Of a stretch of 64,000 bases of DNA, positions 3,592 to 64,000 are shown piece after piece. Under the pieces are notes generated by a model, which did not search any database, was not told where the DNA came from, and saw only the letters and a program-made list of their open reading frames with translations. Source of the DNA: Nymphaea colorata (taxonomy: Eukaryota > Streptophyta > Magnoliopsida > Nymphaeales > Nymphaeaceae); assembly GCF_008831285.2 (NCBI RefSeq), contig NC_045140.1, forward strand, positions 17,606,370 through 17,670,369, read 5' to 3'. Position 1 is the first letter of the stretch; every line of letters starts with the position of its first letter. Position numbers and translations under genes: made by a program.

Positions 3592-3789
3592 ATGGATGGT
3601 CTCTGGTTGTATTTGGCAGTTCCTGTGGTTTCGCTTCTCTATTTCCTGCTGCTGGCATTCGAGTCTGCATGGAGCAATCAGGCAGCATATTTGCCACCCG
3701 ACTCTTGTTTCCCTTGCAGTGCCTGGTTGGAGCAGCAAGGCCGGGATCAAATCGACCGCCGCTCGTCTCCGGCGTCGAGGATCCGGTGA
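3592..3789 (+). CDS. Small single-pass membrane protein, diverged paralogue (copy 1)
   Basis: A 65-residue ORF from ATG 3592 to TGA. Residues 4-24 form one hydrophobic helix, followed by a short polar tail. It shares with the ORFs at 8170 and 13578 an L-x-x-A helix opening, a Glu at the helix end followed six residues later by Gln, and then a PD-x-CFP motif. The CFP-x-S part matches the 13578 copy, while LYLAV and the E-x-x-W spacing match the 8170 copy. The tail differs (Arg/Ser-rich). No known family is recognised. This is the most diverged of the three and could be a decaying copy or chance; the upstream in-frame extension lacks an ATG. The arrangement on one strand within 10 kb suggests old tandem duplication (inference). 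Confidence 0.45.
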   Translation: MDGLWLYLAVPVVSLLYFLLLAFESAWSNQAAYLPPDSCFPCSAWLEQQGRDQIDRRSSPASRIR

Positions 3790-5866
3790 GCAGCTTTTCC
3801 GGGGATAGAAAGCATTGCCGATGACACATCGAAAAATCTGACTGAACCAAGATACTTGTAGGATCAAAATATCAAGTGTCGTAATTTCTGTTCATTTTAA
3901 GGCGGAGGAATTCAGGGTTCCAGCATTGGGACGTTGCTGTGGATGTCATAATGGGACTTCTTCTTCGTGGCTGTTCTTGTGTGGGAGGAGCAGAAAGAAT
4001 CCTGTGTCATTCCATTTTGCCATGACGGTGCTTCCAAAGTCAACGAAAGCTCATCAAGGAAAGATACAGATGTAAATGATGACAGCTTCCATCTTGATGT
4101 ACATCTAATCTTACAATTTTTCCTGTAAATATTGCATTTTTTATGTGTTTTGTGTGTGAGAAAGTTGTCATGCCCACTTGTGTCTTATATGCACTCTATG
4201 CTTCCTCTCATACACGGATGCAAACTTTCATGAAACCAGAGGAAAGGCCAACTCAAAGACCAAGAAAAATCTTTACATTTGAGTGATGTTTTCCGACAGT
4301 TTTTGTAAACCATCTCGTTGGCAGCAATCCTATTCAGCAACCAGGTATGAAAGATGATAAAGTATCAAGGTCTATTGTAGTCTTAAACAGGAAAGAACGA
4401 AGAAGCAGCACCACAGAACCATTTCTGCGCAGAGGTAAGGTTTCATGAAGATGACGGTAAGGGCATCGATGAAAGCAACAACAGGAACGACAATTTTTTT
4501 CCCTCTAAGCATCTGTTAAAGAAATCATGGTGTCGATGGGGAGCCGCAGATACAATACCATTTCACTCTAAGGCCCTGTTACCGAATTTATCAGATGGAT
4601 GATTTTGAGGTCAATTTCTGCTCCTTGAAACTCATAAAAGAACAGTTTCTCCTGCAGAGATCAACATGCTAGAGCAGCCATGAGGTATTTCTTGCACCAA
4701 CATGCTTCTCTCCTTTTCTTTTTCAAAAACCATCATTAAAAAGGGGAAAAAAACAGGAAGAGGCTAGATATGAAAACTTGAAAGGAGGAAATCAGGAAAG
4801 CGATAGGCGGATATTGATCCAGCGGAGGCGAGCAGTGTACCCCTCATGAAAAAGTTTTATTCTCGTAACCCTGTCAAACCTTTTTGCTTATTAACCTCAG
4901 GAATTGGACCACCATTAGATGCCAATCATGTCACTGCTTGGCGCCTGCAGGGCCTGAAGACCGGATGCTGTTGTCGAACTACGATTTGTCCGAGGACTTT
5001 GATTTCGACGCTTTGCTTTCCTTTTTTTTTTCCTGACAATGAGACAACTGAGTATTTTGTTTTCGAAATCAGAAAACTCAAACTTTGAATTTTGATTTCA
5101 TTGCAGTTTCAGGAGGAATTATGATTTTATAATTTTGATTCTTGAATCGAAATTTTAAACCATCAAACGCTCCGTCTCTTTCGCACTGTAAGCCACGAAC
5201 AGATGGGACGGAGTCACGGAGCGTCTCACACGCTTGGCGTTCGTGTTTGGTTACGGCCTTGGGACAGAGCGTCTCAAAAATTATGTGAGATTTAAAACAC
5301 CCTCCGTCCACCTATTCAAACATGCGATTGTAGACATTTTATTTTTTCGATTCGAATACAAAGGAAATTGCACTCAGGCTGGGAAGCTTCATTGCTCGCC
5401 TGCCAGTGCAAAATTCCTAGGATCCTTTAACTCTAGGAATTATGTTTTAATTGGGTTTATTGAAGGGGAGTGAGTTGATACACCCAACAAAAACGCACTG
5501 AAATGCTCATTTAGTTGGTACTCTTTCCTATTAAAAGGGGAAAGGAATTGAATCAAACACCTCTGCAAAGAGAACCCAAAGCCACCCACTTACATTAATT
5601 AATATTCTTCTTCCCTCTTCCTTATTTATTGGCCATCACAATCAAGCCCAAGAGGGTGTAGCACATTTGATTGGACCGGCGGCCAGCCTTTAGTTTAGTT
5701 CAAATCTTGGAGGTGCTTGCACTTTGGGAAAGCAAACCCATGCCAGCAGCACGACGACGGAAGACGACTGGCCTTGCGGGGTTTTATGCCTTAGGCAAGC
5801 CATGCGGTCCTTCAGCTTGGAGTGGTTTCTCTTTTGTTAGTCACTTGGTGGAAGAATCCATGTCAT
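3790..5866. other. Intergenic
   Basis: No gene recognised. The first few hundred bases may be the 3' UTR of the ORF at 3592-3789. A patch around 5180-5280 repeats GGAGCGTCTC/AGAGCGTCTC words and has GTGTTTGGTTACGG, suggestive of a degraded MITE, but clean ends were not found. Confidence 0.45.
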
Positions 5867-5901
5867 GTTATGACATAATCTTAGTCATTTCTAGTAATAT
5901 A

Positions 5902-5968
<67 letters not shown>

Positions 5969-6172
5969 ATATATATCTTGAAGTTTTTAGGTGGTGGATT
6001 TTTTTTATTATAATAGCCTTTTGAAAAGAAAAAACCAGTTTTGAGGTGTTATGACATAATCTTAAGTCATTTATAGTAATATATGCATATATGTATATAT
6101 CTTAAAGTTTCTAGGTGGTGGAATTTTTTTGTTACAATAGCCTTTTGAAAAGAAAAAACCAATTTTGAGGTG
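5867..6172. repeat. Tandem duplication, one copy with expanded AT microsatellite
   Basis: Two adjacent direct copies, about 5867-6047 and 6048-6172. Each begins GTTATGACATAATCTTA, passes through AGTAATATATGCATATAT and continues CTTGAAG/CTTAAAG, TTCTAGGTGGTGGA-type sequence, TAGCCTTTTGAAAAG and TTTTGAGGTG. The first copy contains a long (AT)n tract where the second has only a short ATGTATATAT, which accounts for most of the length difference. Several point differences separate the copies. Confidence 0.85.
5905..5976. repeat. AT microsatellite with GTAT units
   Basis: About 26 uninterrupted AT units (5905-5956) followed by GTAT repeats and a second short AT run. The long Tyr/Ile open frame across it is an artefact. 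Confidence 0.95.
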
Positions 6173-6323
6173 TGCTGACTCTTCACCGGCCAATGACAGA
6201 GCCGAAACCCTTATCCTTTCCCATCTCTTGGGTCCCGACCTACTTTGATCCCACCTCATAATTAAGCCAACCTAAATTTATTGTGTTTTTAAAAGCTATG
6301 TACAAATTTGAATTACTTGTGCA

Positions 6324-6511
6324 CAGGGGCAAAGCCAAGGTGAACGCGCCCTGGCTCCACCTCAATTTTTTTTAAAAAAAAATTACATGTAAATTTTAGA
6401 AAATTTTACTTATTCTATATAAAAATTTTGAAAAATGATATTTCAAACCTAATCAAAAATTAAAAACTTTAATTTGGTACTATTCATAAAAAATTTGAAG
6501 CTCTACTCCTA
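6324..6511. mobile_element. hAT-like MITE with 8-bp target duplication
   Basis: A 188-bp element bounded by exact 8-bp direct repeats CTTGTGCA (6316-6323 and 6512-6519). The left end reads CAGGGGCAAAGCC and the reverse complement of the right end reads TAGGAGTAGAGCTT, an imperfect terminal inverted repeat. An 8-bp target duplication and CAGGG-type ends are characteristic of hAT elements. The interior is AT-rich and encodes nothing, so it is non-autonomous. Confidence 0.75.
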
Positions 6512-6519
6512 CTTGTGCA

Positions 6520-7302
6520 CATTGGCAAGCCATAGCATGGTAAATCTGGACGTTCTTCCTTAGCTGAGAAGTACAAAAGAACGTTGAACTTATGGCAATG
6601 GAAGCTCCTGACCATTTCAAACTTGTGATGACGTTTTGTCAAGATCCCAAGTATGTGTCATTTTCATCCTCCTATTTCGGGGAGCTCCTGCAAATATAGT
6701 CATGTTTCTTTTTAGACCAGACAAGAATATAAATGGAGTAGCGTTTAGTTGTCAATAGTTTTTTTTTTTTTTCATTTGGTGCCAGTATTTGATGAAACCC
6801 ATATAAAGAAGCATGCAATTTACAAAAATAATCTTGTGAATTTGATATTCTTATAATACATAAAATATATGTATCATACTCTGCATCATATTATGATTAA
6901 TTTGATTGATTTTGATTTAAATAAGAGTAGATTCTATTTTTTCATAAAAATGCACACTTCAGGTTTTGATTAAGCATTTTTAGAGATATTCTATGTACAT
7001 CTTTGTATTTGTTAGAGAAGCTAAACAAGAAATGAAGTTTGACCCTTTGACATCAATAGTTTCTTATTTATTCCACTGAAACTTCAAGTAAACGAATAGC
7101 TAAATTTCTTAGAGCCCTCTCTCTTTCTCTCTCACACTCTCACCTCCTTGGTATTTTACCATCTTTCAGACCATGATCATCTGTGCCTATCAAATTCTCA
7201 CATGGGAACCTTTGAGGAATATCCATGCCATCTGTTCTGAAGGATTGTTCGTTCTTGTTAAAATGCAAACATGAACTTGAAGGTTCACTGTAACTACACA
7301 GT
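6520..7302. other. Intergenic
   Basis: AT-rich; no gene or element recognised beyond a CT-rich patch near 7117-7142. Confidence 0.5.
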
Positions 7303-7592
7303 CAGGGGTGGAGCCAAAGAATTTTTCATGAGAGACCCGAATTACAGTTTCAAAATTTTAATGAGGGCCGAAATATAAAAGTTTATAAAGGACAAATAAC
7401 TTTTTAAAAAAAAATTACAGTAATTTTTTTTTTAGATGCTGGGGGGGGTTAAACAAAATTTAGACATTTTACCCTTTCAAACACAAAGTAACGCACTATG
7501 ACACACTAACATGTAATGAAAACCAATTCATGTAGGTCTGTGTGGGCAACAGCCCACACAAGCAAGTTTGCCCACATCTGGCTCCGCCACTG
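7303..7592. mobile_element. hAT-like non-autonomous element, no visible target duplication
   Basis: The left end CAGGGGTGGAGCCA and the reverse complement of the right end CAGTGGCGGAGCCA match at 12 of 14 positions, a terminal repeat of the type common in plant hAT derivatives. The 8 bases on either side differ, so the target duplication is lost or the boundaries are imperfect. A perfect 9-bp hairpin, TGTGTGGGC / GCCCACACA, lies inside at 7539-7560, and a poly-G run near 7441. No transposase frame. Confidence 0.55.
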
Positions 7593-8169
7593 GATGATCG
7601 AGATGATAGAGCCACGCAGATTTTATTATGATGAAGAGAGCTATCAAATACGGAAAATGTGGCTGGAAATTAGCTGCCGTGGAGCACCAAGCTGGATATG
7701 CACTTGACCAACATGATATATAACATCCACACACTTGGGAAACACAACTGGGTCCAGATATCTGTGGATGCCGCTATCTTTGCAATGTTGACATATTTAG
7801 TTAGTGTGCTCATTAAACTAAGGCTAATTAAGGCGTGCCGACATGATCTGGATGCATAAGTACGTTAATCACTTGAGAATTATTATTTAACAAGTAGAGC
7901 ATTTTGTGATGTTGACACCCAAGAGATGATATGCACTGAAGAATGTCGAATATGAAGGTTAATGAGATGCCAAGTTGGGACAAGCTTCATGTGACATAAG
8001 ATTTTTGCATGCATCATCATGTCACATGCAACACCAGTCCTTTCAACTTCATTGTTGCTGTAATGTTTCATTTGCCCACATAACCAACAGTAGAGCTTCA
8101 CAAATTCAGACCAACTCTTCTGTGCCTTCCCAAGGGAATAGCAAGAAACCTTCTTCTTCTCTCTCAGAA
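7593..8169. other. Upstream region of microprotein copy 2
   Basis: No gene recognised. TATATAA occurs near 7714 but lies far from the ATG at 8170. The 30 bases before that ATG are CT-rich, as in a plant 5' leader. Confidence 0.4.
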
Positions 8170-8415
8170 ATGGCAGTTGCAGCTTGTTTTGACCAGTTTG
8201 GGCTTTACCTGGCAGTTGGCCTTCTCTTCTTCCCTTACTTTCTGATGTTCTTCATGGAGGTTACCTGGAGGAAACAGGTGAGGGGCTTGGAGCTTCAGTT
8301 CTGCCCTTCTACCCATGAATCATGGGGTCATCAGCGTGATGATGGAGTTGCTTTTCCCAGATTGGGGCCTCAATTTTTTTATGGGTATGTCGCCAATGGC
8401 CAGAGATTGCCATAG
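8170..8415 (+). CDS. Small single-pass membrane protein (copy 2)
   Basis: An 81-residue ORF. The ATG at 8170 is chosen because it aligns with the start of the 13578 paralogue and sits in a good context (AGAAATGGC); the longer upstream frame opens only with TTG. Residues 1-10 contain AACF, residues 11-30 form a hydrophobic helix with LLFFPYF, then come Glu30, a basic stretch, QVRGLE and a Cys-Pro-Ser motif, followed by a polar tail. The helix, the E-to-Q spacing and QVR-x-LE match the 13578 copy closely. No cleavable signal peptide is obvious, so it is probably a type II or III membrane-anchored peptide (inference). Family and function are not recognised. Similarity between two separate ORFs argues that both are real. 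Confidence 0.65.
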   Translation: MAVAACFDQFGLYLAVGLLFFPYFLMFFMEVTWRKQVRGLELQFCPSTHESWGHQRDDGVAFPRLGPQFFYGYVANGQRLP

Positions 8416-9190
8416 AGCTGCAAGCAACAGTAAGGATAATCTACAGAAAAGCAGAGACAGATGAGAGAAAGATCAAATTCAAAACGCGGAGAACATTCCG
8501 CAGTCTGCCTGGAGAAGCATCAAAAGGCATCTCGAAGCTGTTCGCTTTCTGTCTCTGTACTTGGGTTGGAACCGAGCAATTGGGTTCTTCTGTAACATTG
8601 TATGAATGTGTACCTGTAATTCTGCATAAAGAGTTCTCACTATCTAGAAATCTGTCTTTATTTGTAAATTTCTCCCCTTCTGTATCTTCATCATTCAATG
8701 TTAATGAACACCATCATCAATAATGCCCTCAGCCATTCTGCTTCTTTTTTCTGTCCCTTGCTGCAAGGATGACCCCAATGATTACATGATTTTTTCTTTC
8801 GTATCAGGATCTGAGGTAACTTAGTTCCTGACGCCATTGATTTCTTTTGTTTTTCGTTTCTAAAGATTCATCCATGATATATGTACTCTGAGATAGGATC
8901 TGTCATTATTTAGTGACAACCTAGATCGATGAACCAAGATGTATATATTTGTCTCAAGTTGATTATCAGTTTTCATGTTTTTAGTTTGGAGTTAGTGATA
9001 TTGATACCATAATTTGTATTTACTGAGGTTCTGCATCTTCCATCACTATGGGCACAGTACTTGGTGTTTTGAATGTCCTCTATGATGCTCATTATAGAGT
9101 TCTTTCTATATGATCAGGGTGCCAAGCTGTTCATGAATAGAGAGAGGTGGTCCTTAATGACTCAGCTTAGATGTGTGTATATGTGTGTAT

Positions 9191-9209
9191 GAGAGAGAGA
9201 GAGAGAGAG
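9191..9209. repeat. GA microsatellite
   Basis: Uninterrupted GA dinucleotides. Confidence 0.95.
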
Positions 9210-10179
9210 TTAAGCTTTCTAAAATTCAACAGCCCCCTTACCATTTACAATGTAGGACCTTAGTTGACTGCATTTACTACCATCGCTATAATGTTTCACT
9301 TTGAAAAGCTAAAATTTATCTTTTTGTCGAAGATTGCAAGGAATCTTTAAAAAGAGTTGTTAAGTGGTTGGTTGTTCTAGCTTCTATCGAGCTGAAATAG
9401 AAGCCACTAGGAGGCAGGGTGTGATCCGCCAGCCATTTGTTACCTCCTCCATAGGAGCGAAAGTAGGACAAGATTCAGATGCAATAAGTGCATAAATTGG
9501 GATGGATAAAGCCAAAAATTGCAGAAACCCCAACTTGAATTAGATCGGCCATGGATTCGGCTTGGAGCTAGCACCTCATTCTTCACTTGGATTTCGATCA
9601 AGCCGAAATTATGGCCTTAATTCAATCCACAATTCACAAGACGAAGTTCAGCATTCTCAATACCACCTTAAGGAAAAGTTTTGGCAGATCCATCAAAATC
9701 TTTGATGTCCACAACCAAATACCCATGTAAGACACGGAAATAGAGATATCCCATATGTTTGCCAATATGCATAGTCTCAAAAATCACAGTCCTAGTAAAT
9801 ATGAAGAAGAACTAGACAATGCTATCTGATCGATATCAGCATTGGAGGTAAGATTTTTTTTTCCCTTCTACAGTATACCGGATATGCGTGTACGTATGTC
9901 AATTTATTGGTCCAGCATATTGATTACTCATTCAAGTCGTTTATTCAAAAAAGGCTGTGCATGAAATCGTACATTAGCAGGATGGATGCATGCAAGTTAA
10001 TTTTTCACTGTGAGAAAACTGGTCCCCAGTTTGAGTCGTATGAACAGTAGTGGTAGAACGTTCAAGTGCAGGACTAAGCCATAGTAAAAAAAAAAAAAAG
10101 TGTTTTTTTTTTCTAAAAAAACACTTTAAAAATGCAAAAAATAAGTCGTTCAAAGAAAACGGTAAAAATATCATTTTTT

Positions 10180-10241
10180 AAAAAACACCAAAATGAAAAA
10201 AACGTGTTTTTTTACCGTTTTTCTCATTTTAGGTGTTTTTT
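10180..10241. repeat. AT-rich inverted repeat
   Basis: The left arm 10180-10204 (AAAAAACACCAAAATGAAAA...) pairs with the right arm 10216-10241 (CGTTTTTCTCATTTTAGG...) with about one base of bulge, around an 11-base loop. A smaller AAAAAGTGTTTTT / AAAAAACACTTT fold lies just upstream at about 10094-10128. Coding is unlikely at this composition. Confidence 0.7.
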
Positions 10242-12389
10242 CATGTTGTTTTTTTTAATGCCAACGTGCTTGTTTCCATTTTCTAATTTTTATTTTTTGC
10301 TTATCCCTTCTTTTTTTCTTACTAGTATTTCACTTATTTTATTTTATTTCTTAATTTTTAAGTTTTTTTTTAAATTTGTCATAGTTTTCTCTCTTTTTTT
10401 TCCAAATTCACTCTATTACATCATAGAAAAACATTACCGTTTAAAACCCGAAAACAATATTTATAATTATGGTCTAAACATTAAATATGGGTTTCTCAAG
10501 GCAAGGCAGCCATTCACTGCTTTGTCTGCATTCAAAAAGGCATCATTCTCTTTCAAGGCCGTGGACTCCACTAGACTGCGACAAAGTCAGAAGTTGTCAA
10601 AAGAGGAAGAGAGCTATCAAACATGAATGCTGCGGCAAGATATTAAGTTTTGGTACAACTTGTCATGAAGCAAGTGGAGTCATCCATCCCTTGAAGGACC
10701 ACACTGGCCATATGCACCGAAAAACATTTAACTATATGCTTGGGAAAGGATGTTTTATTAGATGAGTGTAAGTATATGCATAACAAATATAATAATTATA
10801 GAGATAGATTATGAGTTGCCTAATCAAATTTATTGGTAGAGACATCACGTGGAAAATTATTTTTTATTGTGCTTTGTCTTCCACAAACACATGACAACTT
10901 ATAGATGACGATCAAGGAGTGAAGCTGATTACACAAACTCATATAGAAATCAGTCAAGATAGTCGTTATATTGATTTAGACAACATAAATGAAGATAGTC
11001 GTTATAGCTCTATAAAATCCGCCTTATCCTTTTAGGATAGATTCATGATATAATAACAGTGTGTTACTATTACCAAACAACCCCTTATATTTGAAAGACA
11101 TTGTGTCCGAAATCTATCAAGACCGACTTAAAGGTAATCAAAGGCACAAAGAGTTTGTCATAGTCGCAAATCTTGCTACGGAAACTTTTTGGGAAGATAC
11201 AACCACAAAATAACAGGATAGTGACACGACAATCAAAAACAGGTATTAGTTTTAAAAATGCTGTTTGTAGCTATTGTCTGATACAACATAGCAGGAACAG
11301 AGGTAGGTGTAGGCTGCGTGGGGTGTATGCCCCATGGACCCCACTCTAAAACCTTGTTCTTAATAATTAGATTTTGGTAGATTTGGGTGCAATTATATGA
11401 ATCGGTCTTACCAGACCCTGGTTATTTGCTCAAAACTAATTGAAAATTTGTTATTTATATATTTAGTATTTCATAAACAAAAATTTATGGCTTTGCCCGT
11501 GCAACGAAGACCACTTCTAGACAAGTGAAAAGATTTAGGATTTTACCTTATTGCCATGGGGAGCTGAACTCACAGGTTCAGATGGAACTGGTCAATTCCT
11601 TTAGTAAGAAGACAATGGAGTTTTATGTACAAATTGGTTAATTACCTCGACATAATTAATTTCATAAGAATATGCTTGACATGTGAACCCCTCGCCCATT
11701 TTTAAGATGTTTTTGGTTCATTCTTAGGGGTAGGTGTCATGCCGCATAACCAGCTTGGAGCAATCACGGCAAGATAACCATGGTCGCCATTCTGACAGCT
11801 AACTGTCGACTGGTTCCCTGTGTCCCACCACTTGAGAAATGAGGAAAGAAGCTTCAATGGCTTCTCAGATCATTGGCGATCGATCGTTGTCTTCATTAAA
11901 GCCCTTGATTGGAATCGCTCTTTCACTGGACTTGCCTTCTTTCCGTTTCTCTTTCTTTCGTAACTTAACTCCATCACACAACCAACCACGAGTAGTAACA
12001 GCAGCCTTGATGAAAAAACTGTATGAATATGCCGGCCGGCCCCATAGCCATCTGTGGAGTGGAGTTTGTCCTTCGTCAGATTAGCTCAAACTGGTACACA
12101 AGCTCCACCATTAAATGTAGGGTTGCATGGTGCAGAGCTCCGAGCTGGCGAGACCTTTTCCTTTTGAAAATGGCAGCCATTATTAACACAACATATATAG
12201 GTAGGTACATGACCATGAGGTGCTTGGTCTTTGATCTTTTAAAGATGGAACATTGATAGAAAAGTAAGGGAATAACTCTATGTATCTGTCCAGTGGACAT
12301 CTATGCACCCAAAGTCATGGTTCAATTTTCTTTATATGTGAGAAAGAGAGAGAGAGAATTGGTAGGTTGGAGACGTTTCAAGTGCTACA

Positions 12390-12536
12390 AATCATCTTGG
12401 CCATTGGTTTTCCCAAGATAGACACCGGGGAGAAATACAAGTTGAATGCTAAATGGCTAAAATACTGTATCTCATTTCTTTCGTTGATTTTCTCTCCGCT
12501 ATTCATCATGTTGAAATATCCTCGGCCAAGATGATT
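12390..12536. repeat. Inverted repeat, 13-bp perfect arms
   Basis: AATCATCTTGGCC at 12390-12402 is exactly complementary to GGCCAAGATGATT at 12524-12536. The inner 121 bases do not pair well. No flanking target duplication is seen, so it may be a degraded MITE or chance. Confidence 0.6.
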
Positions 12537-13458
12537 CCTTATACATCTAACACGAAAATGTCTCGTAACTACGAATAAAACTATTTTATATATATATATA
12601 CCAACCAAGCTGTCACATGGGCTTCTGCTTTGGACTAAGAAGAGGAAATTGCCTGACAAGAAGGGAAGGACTCACAACCACAAGAAGTTGGAGAAGAACC
12701 TGCTAAGGATCAATGCTGTGGGCCATCACCCATCTGAGGAATCCAACATGACATGCATGGAACCAACAAAAGCATCACCCAGGCACATGCATGGATGTGG
12801 CTGCATGAATGGTGTTGAGAAGCTCAACCTGCCGATGCAATTGTGAATGAATCTCAAGGCTATGACACCTGCTCTTCATCCATGCCCCTGCTGCGTACGA
12901 CAATATCCAGTCATTTGCTATCGTGGATGTGTTGTGATCAGGCCTTTGGTCCCCATCTTCTAGAATTAGTTGGTTTCATATTGCTTTCGCGGATTTGTTT
13001 GAACAATCTTGATGGATCGTGGTCCCTTTTCAAGATCTGCAGTGATTTCAAACATTGAACCTCATATCATATGTTCATGTTTCAACATCAGATAAATTTA
13101 CAAAAATACAGGTTTCGTCTAAAGGCAATTATAATCTCAGGTTTAATCATCACGATGGTGGTCAAATTCACAGTCTAGTTATTATCAGATGTTGATTCTG
13201 TAAACAATTAAGCAAAGAAACCTTACAAATTCTTAGACGTACTAGATCTGAAACCACGAAAAGGTAGGCCATGCAATGGCTGGTTCCGGACCTTGACAGC
13301 AACAGACGGTATGCGTGCAAGGAGAATGACGTGCTTGACAAAACTAACGGCGTGCAGCGGCACCTTATCAAGTTGCAGGCAAGAACAGGTTCTCAGGGCA
13401 CCCTGCCAAGCACATGCAACACAAGCCCTCTCACTTTCACGGAGTCGGCCGCCTCACT

Positions 13459-13466
13459 TATATAAA
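13459..13466 (+). promoter_or_regulatory. TATA box of microprotein copy 3
   Basis: TATATAAA in a locally GC-rich context, about 119 bases before the ATG at 13578. A start site about 30 bases downstream would give a leader of about 90 bases that includes the CT/GT tract at 13536-13569. Confidence 0.6.
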
Positions 13467-13535
13467 CAGCAATGGAGCTCAACAGTGCTCATAACACTTC
13501 TTCTTCGCCCGCTTTTCCCAAAGTGGGAGAGAAAA

Positions 13536-13569
13536 TCTCTCTCTCTCTCTTTCTCTGTGTGTGTGTGAG
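13536..13569 (+). repeat. CT then GT microsatellite in the predicted 5' leader
   Basis: A TC-dinucleotide run followed by a GT run, immediately upstream of the ATG at 13578. CT-rich leaders are common in plant genes. A complementary GA run lies downstream of the ORF at 13862-13889. Confidence 0.85.
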
Positions 13570-13577
13570 TTGTGGAA

Positions 13578-13802
13578 ATGGCGGCAGTTTCGGCTTGCTT
13601 TGGGGAACTTGAGCTCTGCATAGCAGCTGTTCTTCTCTTCTTTCCCTACTTCATGGTGATGGCCGTAGAGTTTGGCAGGAGGAGCCAAGTAAGAGATTTG
13701 GAGCCCGACGTCTGCTTCCCTTCTAGCTATGGATGGGCTGGTGAAGATGGCGATGGCTTCCCTGCTGATCGATTGAGAGTCCACAATCTTTATGGGATGT
13801 AA
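13578..13802 (+). CDS. Small single-pass membrane protein (copy 3)
   Basis: A 74-residue ORF starting at ATG 13578 (a GTG six bases earlier is in frame but not a plant start). Residues 12-31 form a hydrophobic helix with LLFFPYF, followed by Glu, an RRSQVRDLE basic/acidic segment, a PD-x-CFPSS motif and an acidic GEDGDG tail ending in NLYGM. It resembles the 8170 ORF over the N-terminal ACF, the helix and QVR-x-LE, and the 3592 ORF over PD-x-CFP-x-S. A good TATA box and a CT-rich leader precede it, making this the best-supported member of the trio. No characterised family is recognised. The product is probably membrane-anchored with a short soluble tail; its role is unknown. Confidence 0.65.
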   Translation: MAAVSACFGELELCIAAVLLFFPYFMVMAVEFGRRSQVRDLEPDVCFPSSYGWAGEDGDGFPADRLRVHNLYGM

Positions 13803-16544: not shown

Positions 16545-19074
16545 ATGGCGAAGTTTCAAGGAAGATGGATGAAGGTAAGTCGTCGTCTTCGTCTTGTAAC
16601 TAGTTCTACCACACCCATTTCTTGTCGATGCGTTTGATTTCACGGATACCCAAATCGTTCCGAATCTTATTTTTCATGTATTAAGGTGATTTAAGGCCAA
16701 CTTCCTTTTGCCCTCTGTAGAGTCATGCAATTGGGGAGAGAATATTCTCTTCAATTCTCACTGGGCATCCAATAGAGCCGCAGAAAACGATGTTCTTAAG
16801 AGATAATGAGGGGAAGATGGCCTTCAATACGGTCGACAGTCGACACTTTTTCCTTTCCAAAATTTTCTTTGCATTGTCTCAATAAAAGCTCCAGGGATTA
16901 TGAACAAGTCTTTTTCGTGCAAAGATTCATAAGTAATTCTTGTATTGGATTCTAATAAGATTGACTTTTGTCCCCCGAAAGAAGAGAGTTTCAGTCATGA
17001 CCGGGACTAGCATAATCAAGCTGGTGAAATTTCTTGAAAATGTTCCTGTTTTCTTGAATTTTTTCATTGATGGGACTACTTTTTTTTGCCATAATACAAG
17101 AATGGGCCCCTGTCATTTAATTATCTAGATAGGGGCTTAACTTTTGCTGTAAACTGCTAAAAAAAGGCCTCATTCAAATCATGAAATACCGATCACTTGA
17201 AATTATGTATTTTCCAATATTCCCTGTCTTTTGGGGGCAAGATTGTCATTTTCTTTGTCCTAACTCAGAATTGGACTAGCTCTTCAGTTAAAAATCAGAT
17301 AACATAGTGATCAGGAGGCCTTTTTACAGGAAAGATTTCACTTCACAGCCTATCTTAAGAAAAATCAGAAACGTGGAGCTTATATTATTATAAGCAAAAG
17401 GTGGTCTTCTAAATGAAAGTTCTTCTAAAGAACGTTGTGCATGTTCGAGGAACAGCTTTCCCAAAAAACATGGTGTAATTAATGGCCTGGAAGATGGCAT
17501 GTCAAGCGTCAAAGATGAATTCTGAACAAAAATAAGACAAGGGGATTTTCCGCAAGATACTTTCAGAATTCATCTTTTTTACTGACAATCTGGTAGGTTA
17601 CCCATGTTTAGTGCTGAGCAACGCTAAAGTGATTGTAGAACTATAGATTGAAGCTTATTTCTTTCGGAACTGTTATGACTCTTTACTGTCGACCTATACG
17701 CAATTGTTCTTTTGTGCAAGCCAAAGGTGTAGTTGTGCAACATGGGCTAATAAGATATATCCTAGGGTATTCATTATTTTACTGATACTCTTTCAAGAGG
17801 ACGGTTTTCCTCCAAACATAATTCTGAAATAAACTGAATTAACCCAGTTGAACTAAGCAACTGTTAACATTAACTTTCTCGTCATCTTAAATAGCTCCAG
17901 CCATGAGCCAATCATGTACACTCACTCCAGTGTTAATGCTGTCAAACGTTCTTGCACTTCAACGAATTTGTATAATAGAAATTAGTAAAGATGAAATATT
18001 CATTAGCAGAAAATTTTGCATGATTCAGAGCTCCGTGCTATGAACATAAAAAAGCAGTATGGTGGGATAGCGGGAGGCTCTGTTCTTTTACATTCTACTA
18101 CTGCAGTATAAGAATTACTCTGTTTTCTTACTCTTTGCTAGATGGAGCAGAAGGGTGATGGACCAGGAGCCAGGAGCTCTCATGCAGTGGCAATTGTGGG
18201 AAGGAAGGCCTATGTATTTGGTGGAGAGTTCGAGCCGCGTGTCCCGATTGATAACAAGACATACGTCTTTGATCTAGATCAATCGGCATGGTCCCTTGTG
18301 CCAGCAAATGGAGACATACCACCACCAAGGGTTGGTGTGATGATGGCTGCAGTTGGTCATACTATTTATGTATTTGGTGGCAGAGATGCTGATCACTCTG
18401 AGCTAAATGAGTTCTACTCGTTTGATACGACAACCAACCAATGGAAGCTCCTATCTTCAGGTCAAACTGGCCCTGAGAACAGGAGCTATCACTCCATGAC
18501 TGCTGATGATCAGTATGTGTATGTCTTTGGAGGTTGTGGTGTGAAAGGCAGATTGAATGACTTATGGTCTTATGATACCAAAGCCGGTTGCTGGATCAGT
18601 TATCCAGCGCCAGGGGATGCTTGTAAACCAAGAGGAGGTCCTGGCCTTGAGGTATGCGGTGGAAAAGTGTGGGTTGTGTATGGTTTTTCTGGAGAGGAGC
18701 TCGATGACGTCCACTGCTTCGACCCTATCACCAGTGAATGGAAGCAGGTTGAGCCAAGGGGTGACAAGCCAAGTGCCCGCAGTGTCTTTGCTGCTGTTGG
18801 TATTGGGAAGTATGTGATAGTCTATGGTGGGGAGGTAGATCCTAGTGATCAGGGCCATCTTGGTGCTGGGAAGTTCTCAGACGAGGCCTATGCTTTGGAC
18901 ACAGAGACACTTCTATGGACCAAGCTTGAAGATAAAGGCCACTGTGAGCATCCGGGCCCGCGTGGATGGTGCGCCTTCTCTGGTGCCCGCGGAGAAGGAA
19001 TGCTGGTTTATGGAGGGAATTCTCCTACCAATGACAGGTTGGATGATATTTTCTTCTTCACTCCTGTTCTCTGA
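16545..19074 (+). CDS. NSP5-like kelch-repeat protein (two exons)
   Basis: Exon 1 is 16545-16574 (MAKFQGRWMK) and exon 2 is 18142-19074, joined by a phase-0 GT-AG intron of 1567 bases, giving 320 residues. The short first exon is chosen because it supplies the G-x-W-x-K N-terminus expected before the EQKGDGPGARSSH motif and has a GTAAGT donor. Six kelch blades are visible, each with a GG or G-x-x-G turn (VFGGEFEPR, VFGGRDAD, VFGGCG, a degenerate VYGFSG, VYGGEVDP, VYGGNSP), so it should fold as a beta-propeller. In Brassicaceae, related specifier proteins direct glucosinolate-derived aglucones to nitriles; NSP5 is the ancestral-type member found widely in plants, where its substrate is unclear. 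The iron-site pattern EXXXDXXXH is not exact: Glu241 and His249 are present, but the fourth position after Glu is Ser. Expected to be cytosolic. Confidence 0.9.
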
Positions 19075-23353: not shown

Positions 23354-25331
23354 GATCAAGGGGACATAATTTTTTGGCTAACTTCTGATAACTTTTAGAA
23401 GAACATCAAATTTTGATCATGAATGCAACAATTGGCGTTTCTAAGAGTAGGTGCACCAAACTTTAGTGTCTAAATGTAAACATTTTAAATTGGGTGGTCA
23501 TTCATAATTTCCACAAACATGGGGTGTCTTTTTAAATTTTTTCTTTCTTTTCGCAATTTATACCACAAATGTAGGCGCCAATTTGTAGAACACTAAAAAC
23601 AATTTGCCTTTGTCTTTTTAATTGGTTAACGTAGAGAATGGGTCCATTTTCTTGGGAGTCATTCATTTGAGTAGAAGTGACGTTAATCTGGACTCAGAAT
23701 GGATTTGCATCTTTCAAGACCTAGAGGGTTGGTGGATAGTAAATGGTCCACTCTCTCCTTGGATCTTGGTTCAAATCGCGCTGGTTTCTAGACTTGTGCC
23801 TTCGTGATAACTAACATTAACATGCATCGGCACATGGGTGGGCACATGCACACACACACTAGTCCAATGTAGACACATGCCATGGAATTAGTAGATACAA
23901 ATGTCTGGTGCAATTTGTAGTTGAGGGGTACTATTATTAAATTTTATATTTTAAAGTAAAACATTAAAAAAATGAAATATCAATTCTGGGTCTGATTATC
24001 CATTTATATATGTGTTATGTCTAATAGATATTAACGATTTATAAGCATATGAAATAATGGTTCAAGTACAGTTGAATGCTTGAAATGAGTTCTTCTTTTT
24101 GCACATGCACACCGGCACCGGAGGATGGGTCAGAAAGGAGGAACCTTGTCACTTTTCTCTGACAATGTTTTCTCGTGTATCCATCCACGGCGACACTGAG
24201 ACAAATGTTTCAATGGAAAAGAAGTCCATTCCCTTTTCCCTGAGATCATTAAGTTTACTGGTCTAGGAAAGTGGTGACATGTCCAATCTCATACATGGAC
24301 CCGGGCTTCATTGCTCGGGGACCGATTAGATGAACTGCACCATCTTAACCATTAGTTTCTATGTATGAATCAATATTTGATTTTCAATGTCGCACTTGGG
24401 TAATCCAAGTCCAAACCATTTTCATCTCTGTAACTTTTCCTGATTTGGATCTTAAAATTTAACGGGATGCAGTACTTGGATAAGGTTTGGTAGTTGAAAA
24501 TTCCACATCTTTAGTAAAGACTTTGATGTTAAGGTCCTTGATTTAGATCCTTGGTTTCCTGACCTCTCTCCCCACTCCATGGATGAAGGTGGGCCCTTGT
24601 TAAGACATTACCTTGGATTTAAGATTCAGGGTAATCCAAAGGCCCTCAATGAGATCAGATCAATCCAAATAAGGGACACCCAAATTTATTTATTAACATC
24701 ATTCATTCTCTAGGAATAAAACTAATAAGAATCAAAACTATAAGATACCATCGCTTTTTCCTATGAGGTTGGCACAACGATTGAGGCAAAGGCTAGTAGG
24801 TGATCAATTTCAATTTCAAACTTTTATGTAAGTTGAAATATAACAAGAATGTTACCTCAAGACATCAAAAGCAGTTCAGTAGTTGAGAAGAATAATTTTC
24901 TTAGGTGAAGAACTCAAAACCGCAGAGGTGAAGAACTCAAAAGTTATCTGCAATACAGATCATCAGCCGCTCCTTCTGCAAAAACATGATGGTCAATCAT
25001 GCTGCAAAGCTCACAATCATCTCTTGTCGAACACCGTTGATCCTAGAGATGGACGGCGGATGCTGCACGTCACAAAAGCAGGACGAGGTTGACCTCCTCA
25101 AGTTCTGCGAAAGCCAATAATTAAAAATCGCATGCTCCCTCTCTCTCTCTCTTGAATGAAAAAGCAACTCTAGCCAACCCAGCTTCATAAATATGTCTCC
25201 CACTGTTCTCACGCTTTAACCGTGACATCTTCATTACACACATGTGCACGCGATATATATATAATCTTTCTCCTGAGAAGAGGTTCATCCTGCATTGCTA
25301 TAAATTCAGGCTCAAGAAAAGCAAGAGGACG

Positions 25332-25823
25332 ATGGAGATGGAGACGGAGACAAAGATGAAGATAGGAAACGCAGAGGAAGAGCAGTGCCGCCGAGTCTGC
25401 CACCGGCAAGAGCAATATCGCCACCTTACAAGGACTGCATTGTTAGCAATGATCATTTCGCTGCTGCTGGTAGCCATCCGCCACCTCCTCTTCCTGTTGC
25501 TCCTGCAGAGGCAGCGGCCCCCGATGGCGCCGCCCATACTGTTCCTGCTGCTGCATGTCATCGTAGGTTCCATCCTCATCACCTCCATGAACACGCCGCA
25601 GATCGACCAGAAGAAGCAAAGGAAGACGAAGTCCAAGCCCGTGCCGGAAGTGCGGGAAAGGTGCAAATCCGACGAAGGCAGCGGCGACGGCGACGGCGAT
25701 GACGATCTGCAGGTGTCGGCAGAGGAGGTGAACGCGAAGGTGGAGGCGTTTATAGCGAATTTCAGGAGACAGTTGGTAATGCAGAGGAGAGTGCACTCCT
25801 TGAGGAAACAGCATGGGTTGTGA
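25332..25823 (+). CDS. Two-helix membrane protein with C-terminal DUF761 motif
   Basis: A 163-residue intronless ORF. The ATG at 25332 opens MEMETETKMK; the longer frame to 25242 begins upstream of likely promoter sequence and is not used. Residues 1-35 are charged. Two hydrophobic helices (about 36-58 and 66-86) are separated by a short Arg/Pro loop. A Lys-rich stretch and an acidic SDEGSGDGDGDDD run follow, and residues 130-152 carry EEVNAKVEAFIANFRRQL, a clear DUF761 motif (N-x-x-x-EAFI-x-x-FR-x-QL). DUF761 proteins are plant-specific, often small with N-terminal helices, and mostly uncharacterised; some are called cotton-fibre-expressed proteins. The location is presumably a membrane. A 240-codon frame on the opposite strand is a shadow of its GC-rich codons. 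Confidence 0.8.
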   Translation: MEMETETKMKIGNAEEEQCRRVCHRQEQYRHLTRTALLAMIISLLLVAIRHLLFLLLLQRQRPPMAPPILFLLLHVIVGSILITSMNTPQIDQKKQRKTKSKPVPEVRERCKSDEGSGDGDGDDDLQVSAEEVNAKVEAFIANFRRQLVMQRRVHSLRKQHGL

Positions 25824-32170: not shown

Positions 32171-33985
32171 TCATTCAAGGCGGTCCTCATCTTCCTTGTT
32201 TACTACCATAGGAAACTCATCAAAATGCTCAGAGAAATCATACGACTCGCCAATGTTCTTGAGCAACTGATAGACTTGATACATGGACGCTCTCTCTTTT
32301 GGTCTTGGTGACACACAAGCAAATGCTATCCTAAGGAACTGCAAGATCTCTTCATCGTTACCTTTGTCGCACAGACACTTATCAATGGCGTCCTTAAGGT
32401 GGCCGGCAGCGGAAAGGTGGTTCACCCAATCAACCAAGTTCCCTTTGAATCCTTCATCTGCATTTGACACATCCAGGGGCTTCTGCCCTGTCACCAGTTC
32501 CAACAGCAGTACTCCGAACCCATACACATCCCCTTTAAATGAAGCAACCAATGTGCTCGAATACTCAGGCGCTATATACCCAAAATCGCCAAAATTGCCA
32601 TCGATGAACGTACTAAGGTTATTATCAGAAGAACCTAGCAATCTGGCGAGTCCGAAATCCATGATCCGCGCTTCATAGTCCTCGTTTAAGAGCACAGTTG
32701 TAGCACTGATGTTCTGGTGAATGAATGCTGGTTGGCAGCCATGATGAAGCCAAGCAAGCCCCCTCGCTGCCCCGATGCCAATCTTCAACCTCGTAGCCCA
32801 ATCGACCTCACTCGGCCGCATAGGGCCATTCCCATGCAGCAGAGACCACATTGTCCCGTTGGCCATGTGTTTGTACACCAAAAGCCTCTCTTCCTCAACG
32901 ATGCAGTAGCCCAACAATGGCACCAAATTGGGGTGCCTGAGCTGACCAAGCCTAGCCATCTCAGCCCGGAATTGCTTCTCCGACAATCGGCAATTCGGAA
33001 GACGTTTGATTGCCAATGCCGACCCATCATACAGCAACGCCCGATAGGTGGTACCGGTTCGATTCGACAAGATGATATTTTCGGGATCGAAATTGTTGGT
33101 GGCCGCCATTAAATCCGCCAATTTGATCTTGACGATGGGCTTCTGAAACATGAAAACATGGACCAATTTGTGTGCTCTCAATCGATCCACCCATCCGTCG
33201 CCACTGCCGTCGACCTCACCGTGACCTCCCTTCCTGCCGCCGAAGTACCACCAACGGATGAAGAAGCCGAACAGCAGCGAGACGAAGGCGCCGAAGACTC
33301 CAGCGGCGATGATGATGATCATGCTAGTTCTTCCCAGCCCCCCGCATTTCGATCCGAGCGGGTCGCCGCAGAGCTTGCTGTTGCCGCTAAACCAAGACGA
33401 ATCGAATCCGGCAAAGGTCGAGGGGATCGAGCCAGAGAGCATGTTATTCGCGACAGAGAACTTCTTCAGCCGGTTGAGTTGGGATAATTGGCTGGGGATG
33501 GAGCCCGTGAGCTGGTTGTCGCTGAGCATGAGGGCGTTGAGGAAGTGGCAGTCGGCGAGCTCCGGCGGGATGGGGCCGGAGAAGCGGTTATTGGATAGGT
33601 CGAGGGTGACAAGGTAGGGAAGCCACTTGCAGACGCCGGCTGGTATGGCGCCAGAGAACTGGTTGTTGGAGAGGTCAAGGGATGTCATGCTAGAGCAGTA
33701 TTGAAGAGAGTCCGGTATGCTGCCGGAGAGCTTCATACCGGAGAGGCGAAGCTCGAGGACCCGATTCTCGCGACTGTTCCAGCACCCGACTCCGTTAAAG
33801 TTGCAGATAAATCCGACCGACGAGTTGGCGAAAGTCCAGCTGTTCAGGTTCCCGTCAGGATCCGATAGCGCTTGACTAAGCCCCTTGAGGCAGCGGACAT
33901 CATCCTCTGCGCTGAATACATGAAGGAGCATAGGCGAGGCAAGGAGAAAGACGAGAGATACACGGAAAATTAGGGTATTTTCCAT
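32171..33985 (-). CDS. BIR2/BIR3-like LRR receptor pseudokinase
   Basis: A 604-residue intronless gene. Signal peptide about 1-26; an LRR N-cap with CNFNGVGCW (61-69); about five leucine-rich repeats (75-200); transmembrane helix about 221-245; kinase-like domain about 300-580. The short ectodomain, KPIVKIKLADLMAATNNF linker and LLELVTGQKPL segment are typical of the BAK1-interacting receptor-like (BIR) family, whose members sequester or modulate BAK1/SERK co-receptors at the plasma membrane in immunity and brassinosteroid signalling. The kinase is probably inactive: the glycine-rich loop has become NRTGTTYRA and the catalytic HRD is HQN (423-425), although Lys327 of AIK and DFG (443-445) remain. 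The N-terminal SAEDD after the signal peptide also fits the family. It cannot be assigned to BIR2 versus BIR3 from the motifs. The gene is transcribed divergently from SIK1. Confidence 0.93.
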   Translation of the reverse strand: MENTLIFRVSLVFLLASPMLLHVFSAEDDVRCLKGLSQALSDPDGNLNSWTFANSSVGFICNFNGVGCWNSRENRVLELRLSGMKLSGSIPDSLQYCSSMTSLDLSNNQFSGAIPAGVCKWLPYLVTLDLSNNRFSGPIPPELADCHFLNALMLSDNQLTGSIPSQLSQLNRLKKFSVANNMLSGSIPSTFAGFDSSWFSGNSKLCGDPLGSKCGGLGRTSMIIIIAAGVFGAFVSLLFGFFIRWWYFGGRKGGHGEVDGSGDGWVDRLRAHKLVHVFMFQKPIVKIKLADLMAATNNFDPENIILSNRTGTTYRALLYDGSALAIKRLPNCRLSEKQFRAEMARLGQLRHPNLVPLLGYCIVEEERLLVYKHMANGTMWSLLHGNGPMRPSEVDWATRLKIGIGAARGLAWLHHGCQPAFIHQNISATTVLLNEDYEARIMDFGLARLLGSSDNNLSTFIDGNFGDFGYIAPEYSSTLVASFKGDVYGFGVLLLELVTGQKPLDVSNADEGFKGNLVDWVNHLSAAGHLKDAIDKCLCDKGNDEEILQFLRIAFACVSPRPKERASMYQVYQLLKNIGESYDFSEHFDEFPMVVNKEDEDRLE

Positions 33986-54071: not shown

Positions 54072-55507
54072 TCTATACCACTTAATGAATGTGTCTGTCA
54101 TCTTGTTCTTTATTTTTTCTCCATCTTTTTATAGGCTGTATCAGCAGGGAGCATGTTTTCAGCCTTATTTGCTTTCTAATGGGCATCAATTTGCTGTATG
54201 TTCTCCTGTACATGTCAATCTTTACATTTTATGTCATTAGCCTTCTTTTAGTGGCTAGTTTGCAATCTTGGTTCTGTTTCTTGCAATTTTTTTTTACTTG
54301 CAAGCAACAGAGTGATTATCATTGTTGAATCAAGGTACGATCATAATTTATGCATCAATTGTTGTGTTTTCATTTGTTTTGAGCTTAATAAGATGTACAA
54401 CGCAGGGATGAGGTTCTTATTACTAACAACTAGTGATGATCCATTAATAGCGCCATGTATGAAGAACGGTTCTGTTTGACGTAAGCACATAATCAACTGT
54501 AACGGGTCCGAACTGATTTCTGCGAATCAATTTTATGTTGCATTCAATTATTTACCTTTTCCCCTGTGATCAGATTGTTTCCCTTGGAATACTGGACGTT
54601 GGGAGGAACTGTGAGCTGTAGCAGTGGATTCAGCTTAGAAAAAAATTCAACACAAAAAAAGATTTGTGGATCACGTGGATTCAACATAAAAAAACTGCTG
54701 ACTTGAACCCACAATCGTGATCGATTCCCATTTTGACTTTACCCTCCTTTAGAATGGAGAAAACGGTAGCTCCAGACAAACACAGCAAACATGAAACTCG
54801 AGCCGTTGCATTGAATTTGATTAAACAGCCTGTTCTATTAATTACTCTCTTTTGGAAACAAAATCATGACCTTCACTCATCAAATTTTAATGGGTGGTGG
54901 GTGGTTGATTTTTGATGTTATTGATTGTCTACCTTACATATTCAAATGATGTAACTCAAATTTTACTATTTGTTAAATAAATTATGTATATTACATCTAT
55001 AAAATCGTATGAACTATCCAATAACCTGATCGGATGGTTTTATGGTGGAAACAATGAAAGATAACTCTTTGGAACTTATATGAAAAGCGAGTAGGGGACG
55101 TTGTGCTAGATGTTAATGGCTTTGGTCTGGTTTTAGTAGGTTCAACACTAAATTAGGGTTTGAAATCAATCCAAAATACGGCTCACATAGTTTCACCCTT
55201 GCGGCAAGTGATACGTGATGCAAGTATTCAACTGGATGCTATACACGTCTCTAACCTTGATTCTTGAGCACCAATTGGTTTGGATCGAACTGATCCGAAG
55301 TTGTTGGACAGATCGCATGCATTGGCTCCAGACAAGTCGTGGTTCATATGAAAAGATTCGATTCACTGGTCAACTCCATGACACCTTCCTCCATTGATTC
55401 TGAAGCTCAAGGAAAATGGGGTTTGCTGCAGAAAACGCATATGCTGCCGAAGTTAGGGTTGGCGTTAGAGTGCAAGTTTGAGAGGAGGAGGAAGAGGAAG
55501 CGAGAAA
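54072..55507. other. SIK1 3' region and promoter of the DUF716 gene
   Basis: The T-rich first few hundred bases probably hold the SIK1 3' UTR; no canonical AATAAA was identified. The remainder is AT-rich. The final 200 bases are GA-rich just before the ATG at 55508 and contain upstream ATGs, including one at 55348 whose frame overlaps the next gene's start out of frame. Confidence 0.5.
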
Positions 55508-61297: not shown

Positions 61298-64000
61298 ATG
61301 GATGCCGAGGTAAGCTAATAACTCCTCTCTCTCTCTCTCTCTGGTCTCTGTCTTTCTTTCTCTCTCTCTCTCTCTCTCTACAGATTATCACTCTTAAGGA
61401 TTGCTCCAATCGAAGGCTTCTTGAAAAGCTGCCGTCTCTCTCCATCGCTCCCAAAGGGGCGAACTTTTCATCCTTTTGCTTGTTACCTACACTTCTTTCA
61501 ACCAGATGTCTCTGTCTCTCTAACCGTACAGTTTTTACAGGTGATGGTTCCTCCGCTACCAAGCATTTCTGCGACACCAACTATGGATTTCTACGGTCTG
61601 AACATTCCTCCCAAATGGGTTTCTCAGGAGACCATACAGTGCATCGCCAGAGAAGCGGCGGGGAGGATTCTCGTTGCCGAGCGCAAGGCGGTTCGATGTC
61701 AACAGGACTTGGCTGCTACGAAGGAGGAGGCAGTGAAGATGCTCGTTCGGATGAAGCAGATGATGGATTCCAAGGTGAGAGAATGGTCCTTTTGAAACTG
61801 GATTTTTGTGTTGTCTTTCGTTTTGGCTGGTGGACGGTGGAGTTGGTCCCCAGTTTTTATTCGATGATCCTAGACTGTGGTCGGTTTTTTGCTTGTTCTG
61901 CTGCGTTGGTAGTCGATTACAGTATAGTTGTTTACCTTTCTTCATTTGTAGTTTCCGGTTTGCTGTTGCTTACATTAAGAAATTTTAGCGATTTCCCCTT
62001 TTACCTTGGGCGGTGTTCTTTAGAGTGGGAGTTCGGCGCCCTATGCTCTGGGCTTGCTGTTTCTGATGCTTTATTGGGTTTTCTTCCTTCACTTATTCTT
62101 TGCTGTTATCTTTTGCATTACCCACGCAGATTTGCTTTGGAAAGCTTTAGCTTTCCGATGGTGATAGCTAATGGTTTTGATGTTGGGATCTTGAAATGTT
62201 TGGTAAAGTAACTTAGAGGTGAACATTGTTCCTTTTTTTGTGTGTGTGTGTGTGTGTTGTTGTGGATTGTTTGAGAAAGAAAAGGGGGAGGGAGGGTGTG
62301 GGCAGTGAACGTCTGAAGAGTTTTCTTGTATCGATCTTTACCAGTTCTTTTCAGATTCTCCCAGCTTTTATTGCTCATATTTGTCCAGCGTATTTTCTAG
62401 AATCAATTTTTAGTGCAAGTTAATAATTTGTTAAGAGATGGTTTTCCTTGATGTTTCATTGGCAAGGGCATTAATGGCACTGAGGGTTCTGGTATAGAAG
62501 CTTATCCTAAACAGTAAGAGAGGAGGTACATCTTTTGGTGAAAATGGTGGTGATAGAATATTGGATGTAGTGGGAAGAGCAAGAAATCGTGATGAAACTC
62601 AAGAGCCAAAAATGTTCTCTGCAAGAAGATGCCGAGATCATTTTTAGGGCCTTATAAAGAAAGGATGTGTTAGAATATGGCGCTGAGTCATGTAAAAACA
62701 CAACCATAATAGATACGGAGCTCACGTTAGAAGCTCACCCGACAAGACTTCAGCAGTTATAAATTTATAATCATAGTATGCTTCTTAGTTTGTGCATTGG
62801 GTTGGTACCACAATCTGCTATCCTTTAGTAAACTGAAAATATATGAACTATAAAGACAATAGTCTGATATTCTTGTATTCTCTTTGCATCATTCACTTTG
62901 GTATATGTTTGCTCACGTTGGGATTGTTCTGCTGAATTGAAGTCTCTAAAGAACAATTTTTTAAAGGAAGGTTTGTCAGAGTTGTTTTTTTTTTGAGTTT
63001 TTATATCAGTTTCACTCTTTTTCATTTTACATCTTTCTTTCTTATCCTGGCAGCAATTCGTCACAAAATAAATATACAATAATGTGTACCTTGTCAAATT
63101 TGTCATCCTATAAATACAGCATGATCATCAATTGGAGCATGATAAGCAACAACAAAGACAAAACTTATACTAATAAAAATATCTGTTTACTCCTTGAGTG
63201 CCATTGATCTGCATAAGCATGGCTTGTAAATGAGAGCACTTACTATCTTTTCTAAGTTTTCTTGTCAGATAGCTGAAGCGGAAAAGGAGTCATTAGTTCA
63301 GAGCAGACAGATTAAAGAGCTTGAGTATCAACTCATGGAAGCTGAAGACATAATCCTAAGCCTTAGAACTGAATTATCAGAACTTTTAGGAAAGTTTGAC
63401 AGGAGGAAAGGTGGATTGGCGACATCAGATGAGCATATTCCAAAAGAAAGTGCTCCTGTCCTTGAAGATGCATATAATCAGAAGAAGTTTAGTTCTGCTT
63501 CTCCTCACCCTGAACCGCTTAAATGCACTGATGAGGGTACGGACGCTAATGCTAGAATTACAAGTGGTCTCCAACATGGAAACAACTCAAGATTATGCAG
63601 TGCAGAAAATAGGGCATCCATGAAAAATTTCGATGTACAGAATCCAGACTTAGCCTCAATAATTATGAGGCACAAAGAAACAGAATCATGTAGGAATGGG
63701 TGCACTCAACGAATTCGTGCATTTGAGAATAGCTTGCTTTCTGAACATTGGCCTAATCCTGGAGGACATACTCATCGGTCCTCCTTTCTGAAGAATGTTT
63801 GTAATGTTGCCAATGCCATCGAACAGCCTTCTGCTATTCCATCTGCTATGGCTAAACAGGAGAACAAAATGACAAAGAGTGGCGGTTTAACATGGCCAAA
63901 ACAAATGATTGATGTTGGTGGAAGGACCGACGCTAGATATTCAGACATGGTTTTCTCTACATCCTTCTCAAGGAGTAAAAAAAATGCCTGTCAGCAGAGC
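61298..64000 (+). CDS. Coiled-coil protein of unknown function (5' part, runs off the window)
   Basis: Exons: 61298-61309 (MDAE), 61541-61774, and 63269 onward to the window edge. Introns are phase 0 with GTAAGC and GTGAGA donors and CAG acceptors, and the joined frame stays open for 326 visible residues. The N-terminus is Pro-rich. From about 35 to 130 there is a charged, heptad-like helix: WVSQETIQCIAREAAGRI, then AERKAVRCQQDL, MLVRMKQMMDSK, AEKESLVQSRQIKELEYQLMEAEDI and LRTELSELL. The rest is Ser/Asn-rich and probably disordered, with a TQRIRAFENSLL motif near 238-250. The family is not recognised. A CT-rich leader precedes the start, supporting a promoter nearby. The 12-base first exon is inferred; translation could instead begin at MVPPLP in exon 2. 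No enzyme motif is seen. Confidence 0.75.
61325..61380. repeat. CT microsatellites in intron 1 of the coiled-coil gene
   Basis: Two CT runs separated by GGTCTCTGTC-type sequence, just after the first donor site. Confidence 0.9.
62239..62256. repeat. TG microsatellite in intron 2 of the coiled-coil gene
   Basis: Nine TG units following a T run. Confidence 0.95.

Follow-up and report, generated by a model that had tools for sequence, protein, structure and literature searches.

Putative single-helix microproteins encoded by a probable gene family in two clusters of the water lily Nymphaea colorata

Short plant genes are often overlooked in annotation, and the described systems closest to the one reported here are two groups of small plant proteins. 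The ROT4/DVL (RTFL) proteins are likewise short, present in multiple copies and membrane-associated, a likeness that concerns a possible mechanism only. ROT4 is reported to need S-acylation, chiefly at one cysteine, to bind the kinase BSK5 and to have no predicted transmembrane domain (PMC10897394). ARGOS/OSR proteins, which modulate signalling, are likewise small plant membrane proteins, and ARGOS proteins are reported to have two predicted transmembrane domains with a proline-rich linker between them (PMC4478640). Here we describe a group of microprotein genes in N. colorata, starting from a 64-kb stretch of contig C3 (C3:17606370-17670369, hereafter the window) in which an earlier note had reported three small same-strand open reading frames (ORFs), referred to below as A, B and C. 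In contrast to ROT4, a hydrophobic segment is found in all seven copies detected in this genome. Unlike ARGOS proteins, the copies have one marked hydrophobic segment, with one modelled helix in C. A Pfam scan of A, B and C returned no family at E-values up to 10, and thus neither an RTFL/DVL nor an ARGOS/OSR match, in line with the earlier note, which had recognised no named family. Pfam-A includes a DVL model.

This analysis indicates that A, B and C very probably belong to a seven-copy family of short genes encoding proteins of 65-85 amino acids, the other members being C8a, C8b, C8c and C8d, in tandem on contig C8 (Table 1). The positions, plus strand and lengths (65, 81 and 74 codons) of the three window ORFs were all verified, as were the shared motifs: ACF and LLFFPYF in B and C, and in all three a Glu with a Gln six residues further on. 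The proposal of a three-member family held for A, B and C, but the full set is larger by the four copies on C8. The genome (407,766,735 bases in 783 contigs) was searched with C and C8d, and both queries hit the same seven loci, three on C3 and four on C8; as only the best candidates were scored, seven copies is a lower bound. An eighth candidate on contig C4 (E 4.48, two internal stops) was not credible.

Judged by their sequences, A, B and C are homologous, the relationship being clear for B-C and weak by E-value for A-C and A-B. In tblastn searches of the window without low-complexity filtering, query C retrieved B (E 1.5e-12) and A (E 4.5e-5); with filtering, query B retrieved C (E 2.2e-5). 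From B to A, the E-value was 0.008 unfiltered and 6.2 filtered. In none of the 21 pairwise comparisons among the seven copies was the observed score reached by any of 2000 full shuffles or of 2000 shuffles with the hydrophobic block kept apart, the tightest pair in the full shuffles being A-B (observed 58 vs a shuffle maximum of 56). Together with the hydropathy scan described below, these tests bear out the suggested family of small proteins with a single hydrophobic segment each. The best tblastn relative of A on C8 is C8d (58% over 48 amino acids).

Beyond this genome, with C8c as query, 135 prokaryotic stretches matched a pattern, but tblastn at E 1e-3 confirmed none of them as a relative, and a profile search of the PDB gave a lone match at E 0.7, read as chance. 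Text searches of the literature turned up no description of the family among the titles listed, which is weak evidence.

Table 1. Coordinates of the microprotein genes, their anchors and other features (window positions unless C3 or C8 is given, in which case contig positions)
Feature	Position	Strand	Basis and remarks
Microprotein A	3592..3789	+	65 aa; ORF and tblastn homology
Microprotein B	8170..8415	+	81 aa; ORF and tblastn homology
Microprotein C	13578..13802	+	74 aa; ORF, tblastn homology, AlphaFold2 model
TATA-box region of C, CACTTATATAAACA	13455..13468	+	TATATA starts at -119 from ATG
C8a	ATG 21271536 on C8	+	genome search
C8b	ATG 21274600 on C8	+	genome search
C8c	ATG 21279021 on C8	+	genome search
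C8d	ATG 21284709 on C8	+	genome search
Nudix-like gene, left anchor	C3 17598813-17602780 (five ORFs); C8 21243022-21267066 (three tandem copies)	+	ORF comparison, PF18290
Coiled-coil-like gene, right anchor	C3 17667573-17670369; C8 21306381-21309949	+	ORF comparison
Coiled-coil-like gene in window	61322..64000	+	open frames 61322-61792 and 63230-64000, continuing past window; at least two coding stretches
Kelch-repeat gene	18142-19074	+	one open frame, 310 aa; PF24681, E 7e-80
DUF761/DUF4408-matching ORF	25191-25823	+	DUF761 (E 2e-8), DUF4408 (E 1e-4)
Leucine-rich repeat (LRR) receptor-like kinase gene	32171-34066	-	one open frame, 631 aa; PK_Tyr_Ser-Thr and LRR matches
DUF716 gene	55469-56452	+	one open frame, 327 aa; E 9e-42

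The two clusters are situated in collinear surroundings. When ORFs of 50 amino acids or more were compared between 94 kb of C3 and 105 kb of C8, three anchors were found in identical order and on the same strand: a Nudix-like gene, the microprotein cluster and a coiled-coil-like gene. The Nudix label derives from PF18290 on three exon pieces of the C3 gene, with two of them passing the curated cut-off, and the coiled-coil-like label from a Pfam Rod_CreS match far below its cut-off (18.5 vs 100 bits) together with a reading of the sequence. The right anchor has just two genome-wide matches at E up to 0.001, which are the C3 and C8 places, and two stretches of it give synonymous divergences (dS, NG86) of 0.96 and 1.13; for the Nudix exons, dS ranges from 0.82 to 3.67 and is undefined in 1 of 12. 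A peak of synonymous substitutions per site (Ks) of about 0.9 has been reported for N. colorata (PMC7015852). Since the flanks share order and strand, the right anchor is unique to the two places and its dS is near this peak, the clusters are most simply regarded as a duplicated pair, segmental or whole-genome. The duplication was most likely the Nymphaealean whole-genome duplication, in favour of which we count the proximity of the right-anchor dS to the Ks peak. The genes between the anchors differ, with Kelch, LRR receptor kinase and DUF716 genes on C3 and MA3-domain and alpha/beta-hydrolase genes on C8, as expected from gene loss after duplication. Two matches between the contigs are off-order, one from C3 17611450-17611680 on the minus strand to C8 21249247 (E 4e-5) and one by blastn from C3 17621457-17621692 to C8 21249527-21249787; both may be repeats. 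Beside the microprotein clusters, the Nudix-like gene is itself present as three tandem copies on C8 vs one on C3.

The clusters also differ internally. C8a, C8b and C8c are closely alike, and DNA similarity persists among the C8 spacers, which is what recent tandem copying would leave behind; among the C3 spacers there is none. The absence of DNA similarity at E 1e-6 between the A-B and B-C spacers agrees with the earlier view that the window copies are not the product of a recent local duplication. A repeat or transposon origin was considered and set aside, as the C3 spacers and flanks showed no mutual similarity; no search of a repeat library was made. Within C8 21271794-21284708, bases 1182-1570 of the C8a-C8b spacer match the C8b-C8c spacer in reverse, which suggests a local inverted copy.

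Because the clusters form a collinear duplicated pair, at least one copy is probably older than the duplication of the region. The tree parts B and C from A and C8a-d (92/94). It is plausible that two types, one represented by A and C8d and the other by B and C, were already present before the duplication. C8 would afterwards have generated the close tandem copies C8a-c.

Coding constraint on these genes is likely but moderate and uneven, and the core shows it more clearly than the tail. Among C8a-c, identity is 0.90-0.94 in the coding sequence (CDS) but 0.61-0.86 over the 300 bp upstream and 0.80-0.85 over the 300 bp downstream, and the sole gap in the CDS spans 3 columns. In a placement test, the amino acid changes of 10 of the 21 pairs were compared with those resulting from 5000 random placements of the same nucleotide changes. 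A and C8d differ at 27 amino acids, vs a mean of 38.8 under random placement of their 70 nucleotide differences, and none of the 5000 placements was as low; the corresponding counts were 44 for A-C, 66 for C8b-C8c, 110 for C8c-C8d and 159 for C8a-C8c. The expectation that the ratio of nonsynonymous to synonymous divergence (dN/dS, or omega) would not lie near 1 was borne out for the full CDS of C8a-c (omega 0.22-0.41, NG86) but not for the tail of C8a-C8b (dN 0.154, dS 0.158 over 31 codons), the other C8a-c tails of 31 codons giving dN/dS of 0.104/0.158 and 0.043/0.22. In the older copies dS is saturated and omega lies anywhere between 0.02 and 1.41, depending on the pair and the method, with YN00 returning no value in 29 of 42 estimates.

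With regard to the upstream regions, TATATAAACA is found 99-119 bp before the ATG in five of the seven copies, namely C and the four on C8 (-99 to -108 in C8a-d). In A, a TATA-like CTTGTATAAGAACA stands at -62. The 400 bp upstream of B contain no TATAWA, and the position that aligns with the TATA boxes reads CACATAACCAACA there. These features are among those expected if the copies were decaying or marginal duplicates, once real and now pseudogenes in the case of at least A and perhaps B, which we consider possible, if rather unlikely. The N-terminus of A is 4-7 residues shorter than in the other copies, and its tail after CFP is not recognisably homologous in its own frame (at best, 142 of 2000 shuffles were as high). 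A frameshift may lie behind this odd tail, although it is unproven: when the three forward frames after the Cys were compared with four tails, the best of the 12 comparisons was that of the C tail with the second frame of A (2/2000), the remaining ones were 142/2000 or worse, and the C8d tail matched no frame of A (570 to 1881 of 2000 shuffles as high). Nevertheless, A retains an open frame and all eight residues that are invariant in the family. The placement test for A-C8d also argues against decay, but the constraint that it detects could derive from the C8d lineage or from A before its decay. On these sequences, A may be a shortened, diverged or decaying copy and not a full peer.

The seven genes have open frames and are apparently intronless, presumably with one exon each. 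In B and C, GTGAGG and GTAAGA, respectively, come after the conserved Gln codon and by eye resemble splice donors. The reading of the ORFs as first exons of multi-exon genes nonetheless appears less likely: the similarity of B with C and C8d continues past the donor-like place, and tail similarity does so in most comparisons. The number of shuffles as high, out of 2000, was 0 for the tails of C8c-C8d, 7 for C-C8c, 7 for B-C8d, 17 for B-C and 40 for B-C8c, and that for C-C8d was not significant (656). That these are upstream ORFs of a longer gene also appears less likely: in the 1 kb past each stop, the longest listed plus-strand frame from stop to stop has 126 amino acids (8343-8723) and overlaps the end of B. 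A spliced gene may, however, lie downstream.

All seven proteins contain a 19-residue segment with a mean hydropathy of 2.0-2.9 that starts at residue 4-12, the most hydrophobic stretch being 10-28 in B and 12-30 in C; the scan reported the best segment per protein, and the tails read polar in the alignment. The N-terminus before the segment has a net charge of -1 or -2 and contains neither Lys nor Arg (7/7 copies). Eight residues, M1, L13, A16, F25, E31, L41, C46 and W53 in the numbering of C, are invariant, in a set defined by these same copies. The invariant Cys lies 16-17 residues beyond the segment, the C8 copies share the box LPPDxCxPSS, and the Gln noted above is kept in six of the seven copies, being replaced by Arg in C8a. 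The AlphaFold2 model of C, obtained with a 7-row alignment, shows a single helix at residues 3-39. The net charge after the helix is positive only in B.

From this anatomy we tentatively propose a membrane-anchored adaptor. A single membrane helix would anchor a bitopic protein, whose acidic N-terminus might, on weak grounds, be placed outside the cell or in the lumen. The tail would be disordered and cytosolic and, through the invariant Glu, the LPPDxCxPSS-type box and the invariant Trp, would bind and modulate a larger membrane protein, for instance a receptor kinase or a transporter. The invariant Cys may be S-acylated, as is the case for a Cys of ROT4.

Alternatively, the hydrophobic segment could be removed as a signal peptide, leaving 40-60 residues with the Cys box to be released as a signal into the apoplast. 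The start of the segment at residue 4-12 and the conserved box after it would suit such secreted-peptide precursors, as would the tandem arrays with fast-changing tails that are common in secreted peptide families. However, the acidic N-terminus without Lys or Arg in every copy, the invariant Glu one or two residues past the segment, the lack by eye of a clear small-x-small cleavage site and the extension of the modelled helix of C to residue 39 make this reading doubtful. That the ORFs are not genes but resemble each other by chance or low complexity is extremely improbable, for although common membrane helices inflate similarity and the A-B match taken by itself is weak under filtering, no block-preserving shuffle reached the score of any pair and the same genome search revealed the second cluster inside a collinear block.

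Several results nevertheless weigh against a constrained family of membrane adaptors that pre-dates the duplication. The model of C is of low confidence outside the helix (mean predicted local distance difference test score, pLDDT, 65; predicted template modelling score, pTM, 0.34), and the topology of A, C and C8a-d does not follow from their charge. No branch of the tree reaches the stricter support level, the branch uniting A and C8d has only 55/47, and A, B and C as a single clade are not rejected by the approximately unbiased (AU) test (p-AU 0.291). Between A and C8d, dS (NG86) is 2.78 and undefined in the core, much higher than in the flanking gene; the duplication can therefore not be dated from the microproteins themselves. 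The placement test is borderline for B-C (236/5000) and not significant for C8a-C8d (358), C-C8d (549), B-C8d (636) and C8a-C8b (1364). Moreover, omega exceeds 1 by maximum likelihood for B-C8d (full 1.41, core 1.01) and for the core of B-C8a (1.10), and by YN00 for full-length C8a-C8d (1.08).

Taken together, the gene family and the adaptor mechanism form a joint statement that we hold to be somewhat probable, because the family itself is very likely and the mechanism considerably less so. The more far-reaching proposal, that these are a new family of bitopic plant microproteins pre-dating the water-lily whole-genome duplication and acting as Cys-acylated adaptors, with mostly unannotated relatives across flowering plants, appears unlikely at present.

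The approach of combining homology, collinearity, core promoter and coding constraint is repeatable elsewhere. The collinear pair of clusters suggests, from one species alone, that short genes of this kind have been retained over a long time. If expressed, the copies would represent a small set of uncharacterised membrane proteins in an early-diverging angiosperm.

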